Assembly (NCBI RefSeq): GCF_025716875.1
Contig: NZ_JAOVZB010000002.1
Coordinates: forward strand, 248,001-312,000
DNA from: Marinomonas sargassi
Lineage (GTDB): Bacteria; Pseudomonadota; Gammaproteobacteria; Pseudomonadales; Marinomonadaceae
Direction of reading: 5' to 3'
DNA: 64,000 bases
Shown here: positions 60,784-63,338 of the stretch, one piece after another
Layout of the letters: each line of letters starts with the position of its first letter
Position numbering within the stretch: position 1 is the stretch's first letter
Program-made: the position numbers and the translations under genes
Notes under the pieces: model-generated
What the model saw: only the letters and a program-made list of their open reading frames with translations
The model's database searches: none
What the model was told of the DNA's origin: nothing

Positions 60784-61113
60784 ACTAGTAATCCTATGGA
60801 TGGAAAGTATGACTGTCTAGAAGATTTACAAAGTGGTTAAAGAGCCCCTCTTTCAGTGTGAAAGAGGTATATGGTCTTCCTTTTTTATTAGGAAGCAAGT
60901 GGTACATTTTGAAACATTAAAATTCTGGTAATAAATGCAGAGCTATTTATATTAGTTTCTAATTAGCACTTAAATTACTAATAATTAATTTACCTATAAA
61001 TATTGAGAGCCTAACAACTACAACCAGAGTACTATTATAATTCAAAATATTAAGGTGCATACTCTGCTACATTGGAGCTCAATATTTAACTTAGTTTAAA
61101 GGAGTAAATAAGA
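60784..61113. other. 330-base intergenic region upstream of the BLUF gene
   Basis: Divergent promoter region. A perfect 9-bp hairpin CCTCTTTCA / TGAAAGAGG lies at 60847-60867. TAAATATTGAG (60997) recurs inverted as CTCAATATTTA (61078-61088), framing a TATAAT at 61036-61041 that may be the BLUF -10 element, though no good -35 box is at 17 bases. Otherwise AT-rich with no gene. Confidence 0.35.
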
Positions 61114-61551
61114 ATGATTTCTGTTTCTTATATTAGTAAAGCCGAAAAAAAGTTTTCTGATAGTGAACTTTTAGAAATGCTAGGAGGCTTTCAAAAAAAT
61201 AATGAAAAAAGCAATATATCAGGGGTTTTACTCTATAACGGTGCAGGAACATTTATCCAAATTATTGAAGGCGAACAGGAAGTTATTGATCCTCTGTATC
61301 AAAGCATAAAAAATGATAATAGACACACAAACGTGACTTGTTTAAGACGTGCAGAGATACAAGCTCGAAGTTTCTCTGAATGGCGTATGGGGTTTCGAAA
61401 ACTAAGTAACGATGAACTAATTGATGCAAGTAAAGCAACCGTCTTTATGGATGACGAGAAACTAGAGCATTTTGTATCTGACGATACCGATTTCGCTTTA
61501 AAGGTATTAACCAATTTTAAAAATAAAACAAAAGAGCTTATCTTCGAATAA
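61114..61551 (+). CDS. BLUF-domain blue-light photoreceptor
   Basis: 145 residues: a BLUF domain (about 1-95) plus two or three C-terminal helices and no output domain. The flavin-site residues align with Slr1694 and AppA (from memory): Tyr6 (SVSYIS), Asn30 (KNNEKSNISG), Gln49 (FIQIIEG), Trp90 and Met92 (FSEWRMGF). Short BLUF proteins of this type act by binding a partner. AAAGGAG precedes the ATG, and the chemoreceptor starts 19 bases after its stop, so the two are almost certainly co-transcribed. Confidence 0.93.
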   Translation: MISVSYISKAEKKFSDSELLEMLGGFQKNNEKSNISGVLLYNGAGTFIQIIEGEQEVIDPLYQSIKNDNRHTNVTCLRRAEIQARSFSEWRMGFRKLSNDELIDASKATVFMDDEKLEHFVSDDTDFALKVLTNFKNKTKELIFE

Positions 61552-61570
61552 AGCTTGTCAGGAGTAGCAG

Positions 61571-63265
61571 ATGCTGAAGTCTATGAAAATTTCTCAAAAG
61601 TTTCTTTTAATGAGTAGTATTCAAATTTTACTCATCGTTATTTTGGGCTGGTTTGCACTTTCGCAAATGGCCAAAATAGGCCATGAAATTAAAGAGATTT
61701 CGAACGACCACCTTCCCTTAACAAACACTCTCACACTCATAACCGAGCATCAGTTACAGCAAGCAATTGCTCTTGAGAAAGTGGTTTCGCACTCTTTATT
61801 AGATGTAGTGAAAGGGGAAAAACTCTCAAATGAAACATCAGCTCTTATTCAATCCCTAAATACCTCCCTGAAAAAACTACATGACGAAATTGTAGGGGCT
61901 GAAAAAACAATAACTACCCTAGAAAATGATGTTGAGCTACCAGAGTCAAAGGCTGAATATAAAAAGCTGCATACTGAGTATATAAAAATAGAAAATGAAT
62001 TTTTCCAATTAGAAAAAGAAACTAATGCTTTTCTAAATGCCATAACCAAAGATGGCATCCAAAAAGCTTTGGGTAAAATAAGCACTCTTGAGAAGTTAAA
62101 CCATTCACTTGATGAACATCTCATTGAAGTATTGAATGAGGTTCAACAGTTTTCCATAAACGCAGCAAATCAAGCTTATAGTGACGAGCAAGCCGCGATT
62201 AAAGTCATTGCCATCGTCTTAGCTATCGCCGTTGTACTAGGCATCATCATCCCTTATTTCATTAGCACTTCTATTCTAAAATCTTTAAAAGAGCTACTCA
62301 CAAGACTGGAAGATTTAGTAACCGGAGAAGGAGACCTAACCATACGCCTTAACTTTACTTCTAAGGATGAATTAGGTGTTGTTGCTTCTAAACTTGATCT
62401 ATTTATGGAGAAATTGCATCGTATTATCTCCAGTGTTTCAAATTCATCCAATCAACTTAATGCAAGCTCAGAAGCCGCTGTAGAAGTCATTCAAAACACG
62501 CTTAATAGCGTTAAAAACCAAAAAGCAGAAACAGCCGAAGTATATCAAGCTGTAGATGAAATGAGTAAAGCGACCAATGCTGTTGCACAGAGCACGATTG
62601 AAGCATCGGATGTCGCCAACAGTGTCCGCACCATTGTCGCGGAAGGCAAGGAGGCAGCAGAACGAAACCAAAAAATCACTGCAAAACTCGCCCAAGATGT
62701 GCAAGAGACTTCAGACAGTATTAGCAACCTTGCAGAAGAAACCAACAACATTGGTACCGTACTAGATACCATTCAAGGCATTGCTGAGCAAACTAACTTA
62801 TTGGCTCTTAACGCGGCTATAGAAGCAGCTCGAGCGGGCGAAACAGGTCGAGGATTTGCTGTTGTGGCTGACGAAGTTCGCTCACTGGCTCAAAGAGTAC
62901 AAACGTCGACAATTGACATTCAAAAGCTTGTTGAAAGCTTACAGAGTGGCGCAGAAGATGCGATGAAGCGCATGAACCAAGGCTTGAGCGTCACCCAACA
63001 ATGCTCTGAGATAGGGCAACAAACCGCTACTAGTTTTGAAAACACGGTGAATGCAGTAAATCATATCGCTGAATTAAATGAGCAGATAGCCACAGCTGCC
63101 GAACAACAAGCGGCGGTAGCGGATCAAGTTCAAAAGAATATTGATAATATAAATCAGATAGCACAAAACACAGGGGAAGATGCTTCTCGCGTTGCGCAAG
63201 CAAATGAAGAAATTGCCATGAGTGTCGTTAACCTAAATTCCGACCTTAACCAATTTAAGGTTTAA
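61571..63265 (+). CDS. Methyl-accepting chemotaxis protein downstream of BLUF
   Basis: 564 residues: membrane helix 1 (about 10-30), a helical periplasmic region (about 33-213) of four-helix-bundle type, membrane helix 2 (about 214-234), HAMP (about 235-290; GDLTIRLNF), and signalling domain with [25 protein letters not shown] precedes the ATG. It is the second gene of the BLUF operon and would be the natural partner for light input, perhaps through its cytoplasmic HAMP or coiled-coil part, while its own sensor may bind a chemical ligand. Confidence 0.94.
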
Positions 63266-63297: not shown

Positions 63298-63338
63298 TTT
63301 ACGTGAGCTATAAAGAAATATGTTATAGCTCACGTAAA
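63298..63338. terminator. Long perfect hairpin after the BLUF-chemoreceptor operon
   Basis: TTTACGTGAGCTATAA (63298-63313) pairs over 16 bases with TTATAGCTCACGTAAA (63323-63338), loop AGAAATATG. There is no T-run, so termination is probable but not certain. Confidence 0.6.

Follow-up and report, generated by a model that had tools for sequence, protein, structure and literature searches.

A BLUF photoreceptor gene and a chemoreceptor gene form a conserved pair in Marinomonas sargassi and other Pseudomonadales: a candidate light input to a ligand receptor

In Marinomonas sargassi the gene of a short BLUF protein lies immediately upstream of the gene of a transmembrane chemoreceptor, which raises the question whether the photoreceptor serves as a light input of its neighbor. 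BLUF domains respond to blue light with an altered flavin hydrogen-bond network around Tyr6 and Gln49. The window, i.e., the whole stretch of 64,000 nucleotides analyzed here (contig NZ_JAOVZB010000002.1, positions 248,001 to 312,000, forward strand), belongs to a genome of 3.14 Mb designated G000. Receptors and BLUF proteins whose genes adjoin are called linked, and receptors without a BLUF neighbor unlinked. The features of the locus are as follows.

61098..61113, + strand: ribosome-binding region of the BLUF gene, AAAGGAG, ending 9 bases 5' of the ATG (read from the sequence)
61114..61551, + strand: BLUF photoreceptor gene, 145 aa (open reading frame, Pfam, alignment)
61552..61570, + strand: gap of 19 bases including the ribosome-binding site of the receptor gene, AGGAG (read from the sequence)
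61571..63265, + strand: transmembrane chemoreceptor gene, 564 aa (open reading frame, Pfam, fold model)
62417..62488, + strand: receptor residues 283-306, first half of a candidate docking region, including E301 (post hoc contrast of linked and unlinked receptors)
63185..63262, + strand: receptor residues 539-564, the other half of that candidate region, with V553, S557 and N560 (post hoc)
63298..63338, no strand assigned: perfect 16-base inverted repeat with a 9-base loop, 3' of the receptor gene (read from the sequence)

The arrangement reported in the preliminary description was recovered: a 145-aa BLUF protein and a 564-aa receptor 19 bases apart, with AGGAG-type ribosome sites before both. 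The pair is flanked upstream by the gene of a PNPOx-like protein and downstream by a Dabb gene (Pfam), both on the opposite strand and with no evident tie to light. Also upstream on the opposite strand, an alginate lyase gene (PF08787, 57724-58623) was observed with SDR and HAD genes close by. The inverted repeat might possibly be the shared transcript end of the convergent receptor and Dabb genes; it was not flagged by the terminator scan, whose maximum loop is 8 bases. We infer co-transcription of the BLUF and receptor genes from their spacing alone, because the sigma-70 promoter scan gave matches at chance level without promoter-like excess, the sigma-28 consensus gave 12 matches in the window versus 8 expected and none near the BLUF gene, and comparison of the upstream regions of the five Marinomonas pairs revealed no strong shared block.

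Residues 1-93 of the first protein form a BLUF domain (Pfam, 1.1e-28, 99.6 bits versus a curated cut-off of 25), the sole BLUF match in its genome; NCBIfam contained no family for the protein. The flavin-site residues Tyr6, Asn30, Gln49, Trp90 and Met92 stand at the positions described before and are invariant in all 11 linked BLUF proteins. The core was modeled with good confidence and the tail with poor confidence (block pLDDT 35-62 from residue 101), and in a structure search the core fold matched PixD (Slr1694), BlsA and two light-regulated adenylyl cyclases.

The receptor contains HAMP (31 bits, cut-off 25) and MCPsignal (137 bits, cut-off 34.6) domains according to Pfam, while TarH and 4HB_MCP_1 matched below the Pfam cut-off only, as did all NCBIfam matches with respect to the curated cut-offs. 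With membrane limits judged by eye from hydrophobicity, the layout comprises TM1 (about 8-30), a periplasmic four-helix domain (about 31-207) and TM2 (about 208-230), followed by HAMP to residue 283 and the signaling hairpin (284-564), the tip of which, around residues 404-442, is nearly invariant in the alignment. The N-terminal part (281 residues, pLDDT 77, from 7 sequences) was modeled as helices 7-80, 87-120, 124-160 and 163-251, with the four-helix domain continuous with the membrane helices. Its best fold match in the PDB was the ligand domain of Vc1313 (8bsa/8bsb, with D-arginine or D-lysine) at about 15% identity, then NarQ, with Tar lower; a ligand-domain profile searched against PDB sequences returned helical non-receptor proteins only (E 0.0087 or worse). 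This modeled periplasmic fold, four-helix and Vc1313/NarQ-like, makes it very likely that the receptor senses a ligand, too. A chemotaxis output pathway exists in the organism, since G000 carries a CheA gene followed by a CheB gene, and six CheW-domain matches. There are 32 MCPsignal matches in its 3.14 Mb. One paralogue (G000:C5:513056-514744, L046), 49% identical to the window receptor, has no BLUF neighbor. Two of the 32 matches (G000:C9:35441-35875 and G000:C8:304387-304860) contain an in-frame stop and probably represent decaying receptor genes.

A lack of conserved adjacency in relatives had been named beforehand as an observation that would refute a functional pair. The pair is kept in 11 genomes, within and beyond the genus: five Marinomonas and six other Pseudomonadales, the window included. 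In all eleven the BLUF gene comes first and on the same strand, and the two genes are 12 to 87 bases apart in ten pairs but overlap by 7 bases in G084. Within Marinomonas a BLUF match was present in 31 of 48 genomes (37 matches) and the pair in 5 of 48, namely in the window genome, G035 (MED121), G020, G040 and G042. Against profile A1, itself derived from these five sequences, the linked BLUF proteins scored 253-271 bits, and the other BLUF proteins of the genus 85 bits or less. Neighbors in the genus were covered for 27 of the 28 loci L002-L029 (the BLUF frame of L017 was filtered out) and for the second BLUFs of G009 and G035:C4, leaving out two half-matches of G013. Outside the genus the pair occurs in IMCC1989, a Candidatus Endobugula MAG, two uncultured Pseudomonadales, G270 and G084. 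The six receptors of these genomes align over their full length with 40-45% identity to the window receptor, and with 24-35% in the N-terminal part including the ligand domain.

Apart from the pair, the five Marinomonas loci had no gene in common at 60% coverage, a comparison without one flank of G042, whose contig begins 437 bases 5' of the BLUF gene. Further flank matches were those of a different receptor near the window pair to the receptor of G040 and of an ABC-transporter piece, with 26% identity, to G042. As the flanks differ, the pair itself is the conserved unit.

The search was extended to wider samples, with flanks for neighbor inspection that often spanned just 1,500 bases or ended at a contig edge. 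In the order, 37 of 341 genomes had a BLUF match (28 new loci inspected, 8 further matches left out). In the class, matches occurred in 26 of 369 genomes, and none of the 29 loci inspected besides the window's own had the pair; in seven of these a longer overlapping frame hid the BLUF frame and all frames were listed, and two locus-less matches were left out. In the phylum, 15 of 398 genomes matched and none of the loci L168-L180 was paired, the other matches being the window, the known pair of G270, and L107. The families of G270 (2 of 148 genomes matched) and G084 (1 of 44) contained no pair beyond G270 and G084 themselves. BLUF matches on plasmids amounted to 141 records, all below 60% identity. 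Among the examined loci, the pair looks confined to Pseudomonadales, with a patchy distribution there.

Other BLUF arrangements were also encountered. In G249 (L093:1489-3396) and G324 (L094:1-1908), Pseudomonadales, the BLUF frame overlaps the downstream frame by one base; in L093 the downstream frame is a CheB-CheR fusion (Pfam), a second link of a BLUF to a chemotaxis-type gene. In L125, from the class sample, a receptor fragment lies near the BLUF gene, past a gene on the opposite strand. In L105:1495-2379 the BLUF domain is fused to a PsiE domain (Pfam), and the longer BLUF frames of L168-L172 may be BLUF-PsiE proteins as well; a Thiodictyon plasmid match has a PsiE annotation.

The linked BLUF proteins carry marks of their own. 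Compared with 88 unlinked BLUF rows, which are the best matches of our own searches and not a random sample, the hairpin Y41-F47 has seven residues in all 11 linked proteins and in none of the others; the same stretch has six residues in 86 of the 88, and the remaining two are gapped. The extra residue lies directly before the flavin-contacting Gln49. By pattern reading, the short hairpin was present in all nine readable sequences among 13 further phylum-level BLUFs. Phe127 in the C-terminal tail, where columns align less surely, is found in 11/11 linked versus 0/88 other proteins. A conserved tail with a linkage-specific residue would fit a role of the tail in docking, although the tail was modeled with low confidence. 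In a tree of all 99 rows a single branch separates the 11 linked BLUFs from all others (SH-aLRT 91, quick method, unstarred).

In the receptor tree (31 rows) the 11 linked receptors form one clade with 10 unlinked receptors (98/94), and linkage requires six changes, five of them forced by starred branches. This would fit one gain and four or five losses of BLUF linkage. The loss lineages are G009; G028/G036/G005; G045/G031/G041 with the G000 paralogue; and G296; a fifth may be G010, if its weakly supported placement (88/82) is correct. G041 is labeled unlinked as its genome, 77% complete, has no BLUF match, with a contig starting just 5' of the receptor. The tree omitted G003 (broken frame), G019, G035:C9, G042:C5, G042:C3, the weaker receptors of G020, G009 and G000, and L151, L155, L159, L160 and L162. 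The G003 relative (L040:6101-7795) carries a stop close to its 5' end that breaks the frame. G009 and G020 provide a natural comparison: ten genes match in the same order, the receptor among them with 82% identity, and the place of the G020 BLUF gene is taken in G009 by about 263 bases that do not align and in which no trace of a BLUF could be detected. Among the examined loci the dependence is one-way, as receptor relatives without a BLUF exist, while no BLUF of the linked branch was seen without the receptor. The dN/dS ratio was mostly uncomputable due to saturation (one BLUF pair with dN 0.154 and dS 1.42, two receptor pairs with dS 2.6 and 3.5), and the mirror-tree correlation (r = 0.91, 55 pairs of 11 genomes), calculated without species-tree control, is not counted as proof.

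We then asked which receptor residues follow the presence of the BLUF gene. The best separators of linked and unlinked receptors in the 21-row clade were columns 553 and 557 (0.69, compared with 0.63 as the 95% limit for the top column when labels were shuffled 200 times without regard to phylogeny). Residue 553 is V/I in 11/11 linked versus 0/20 unlinked receptors, and all five phylogenetically independent pairs agree (p = 0.0625, the floor for five pairs). Residue 557 is S/T in 11/11 versus 4/20 (0/10 of the unlinked within the clade), residue 560 Asn in 11/11 versus 3/20, and residue 301 Glu in 11/11 versus 6/20; the unlinked G296 has Met553 together with Asn560. Six of the 12 top columns fall within residues 283-306 and 539-564 (hypergeometric p = 2e-4 for a region drawn post hoc), the two hairpin ends expected to meet beside HAMP. 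The other six lie outside this patch, four of them in the ligand domain, and column 491, likewise outside, separates about as well (Glu in 1/11 linked versus 9/10 unlinked).

Three unused unlinked receptors (G042:C5, G035:C9 and G019) served as a held-out check. The unlinked pattern was seen in 3/3 at residue 557 (Val, Asn, Gln) and at residue 301 (Asn, Asn, Lys), and in 2/3 at residue 553 (Thr, Asn, but Ile in G035:C9) and at residue 560 (Ser, His, but Asn in G019). The complete combination of E301, V/I553, S/T557 and N560 is present in 11/11 linked and 0/23 unlinked receptors, including the three held out. The membrane-proximal base of the cytoplasmic bundle is therefore named here as a candidate docking site of the BLUF protein, selected post hoc and partly upheld by the held-out receptors.

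With BLUF and receptor genes side by side in the window and ten relatives, the pair is probably a switch by which light steers swimming. We consider it likely from the sequence comparisons that the BLUF protein is the cytoplasmic light input of the adjacent receptor, docking near HAMP, shifting CheA and steering swimming. Blue light would change the flavin hydrogen bonds at Tyr6/Gln49; the switched BLUF protein would move its C-terminal tail, which would dock on the receptor, with the foot of the cytoplasmic bundle next to HAMP and the membrane as the most likely place; binding or release of the tail would alter how the receptor controls CheA; and one receptor would thereby read both light and a periplasmic ligand to steer swimming. 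As the receptor retains its periplasmic four-helix ligand domain, the BLUF protein would most likely modulate a ligand receptor from the cytoplasm. The preliminary description had taken the chemoreceptor as the obvious partner of the BLUF protein; the adjacency conserved in 11 genomes speaks for that choice, which had left aside the receptor's own ligand domain and its BLUF-less relatives. Starting from the pair, the single BLUF branch tied to it, the one-way dependence, the marks on both partners and the CheA, CheB and CheW-family genes, all of which were observed, we infer that the two proteins touch, where they do so, in which direction the response goes, and that it leads to taxis. More tentatively, a BLUF subfamily with the extra residue before Gln49 and Phe127 might act as a detachable light co-receptor: by binding next to HAMP, at the base of the receptors of one family, it would enable a ligand chemoreceptor to signal blue light too, with the docking residues drifting in lineages that lost the BLUF gene but retained the receptor. 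This extended reading seems plausible to us, just short of an even chance, the held-out receptors having lowered its odds slightly.

The shared operon might instead serve joint expression only, with the receptor being an ordinary ligand receptor and the BLUF protein acting on a partner elsewhere, for instance a regulator of transcription or an enzyme of c-di-GMP metabolism. Known short BLUF proteins use such partners, as stated for BlsA (PMC8508746), PapB-PapA (PMC8846402) and PixD (PMC5812497), and both the complete ligand domain and the persistence of receptor relatives without a BLUF agree with it. Nevertheless, no third gene accompanies the pair throughout the visible Marinomonas loci, none of the 99 BLUF rows falls on the linked branch without this receptor, and receptor residues vary with BLUF presence in the post hoc contrast; we regard joint expression alone as rather unlikely. 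Adjacency by chance or hitchhiking is effectively excluded. A same-strand receptor neighbor would rarely arise by chance, because G000 has one BLUF versus 32 MCPsignal matches in 3.14 Mb, which places a receptor neighbor at about 1% of positions (with the gene number estimated from genome size); the recurrence in 11 genomes with different flanks, a single BLUF branch and shared marks is at odds with such an origin.

It is also conceivable that the BLUF protein, through its flavin, informs the receptor of redox or energy state, following an Aer-like logic with light as a side effect. The flavin pocket residues are kept, and the unusual longer hairpin before Gln49 in the 11 linked BLUF proteins might alter the chromophore site. 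However, all 11 linked proteins retain the residues of BLUF photochemistry, Tyr6 and Gln49 among them, the core fold matches photoactive BLUF proteins, and no precedent for a BLUF in energy taxis or with Aer was met in a search of PMC; a redox role seems very improbable. A light input to the adjacent receptor remains our preferred reading.

The layout had been regarded as undescribed in a marine heterotroph. This holds for a BLUF paired with one receptor, of which no description was found in PMC full text (an absence that is provisional, as subscription literature lies mostly outside), but not for the wider association with chemotaxis genes. The BLUF gene I6N98_15960 of the marine heterotroph Spongiibacter nanhainus lies directly upstream of a chemotaxis cluster (che, motAB), its deletion abolished the blue-light effect on motility, and chemotaxis protein levels and expression were reported to change (PMC8805636). 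The two cases are alike in that a BLUF gene adjoins chemotaxis genes, and differ in that the Spongiibacter BLUF precedes a che and motAB cluster and is not described there as the partner of a single receptor (PMC8805636). A review of light-controlled motility treats PixD, AppA, YcgF and a Euglena BLUF protein (PMC5812497).

Among photoreceptors coupled to chemoreceptors, the nearest analogues are the PYP-MCP fusions of Nitrincola alkalilacustris and others, predicted phototaxis receptors, although no phototaxis has been detected so far in Nitrincola (PMC12826048). There, too, a blue-light photoreceptor is genetically joined to an MCP; however, the p-coumaric acid-binding PYP is fused at the C-terminal end, whereas the window encodes a separate flavin protein that would act in trans. 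Sensory rhodopsins and their Htr transducers, as cited in the same article (PMC12826048), likewise couple a separate photoreceptor to an MCP-type transducer, but a membrane photoreceptor is complexed with a membrane transducer, while the BLUF protein is soluble and its receptor has its own ligand domain. The fixed genetic pairing expected of a photoreceptor and its MCP transducer was found here in 11 genomes. For signaling by a short BLUF through its C-terminal helices to a separate protein, PapB-PapA of Rhodopseudomonas palustris provides the model (PMC8846402), although PapA is an EAL phosphodiesterase and no chemoreceptor. PixD of Synechocystis and BlsA of Acinetobacter are also short BLUFs that signal by protein contact, as proposed here, but they act on a response regulator or on transcription factors.

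With G020 carrying and G009 lacking the BLUF gene, the partnership is open to direct test in a natural comparison, and the candidate docking patch points to residues for exchange. The pair could also provide a compact, flavin-dependent means of switching chemoreceptor arrays by light. If the proposal is true, this would be, within the literature searched, the first case of a BLUF protein dedicated to a chemoreceptor, and an example from nature of a soluble photoreceptor plugged in trans into a ligand receptor.
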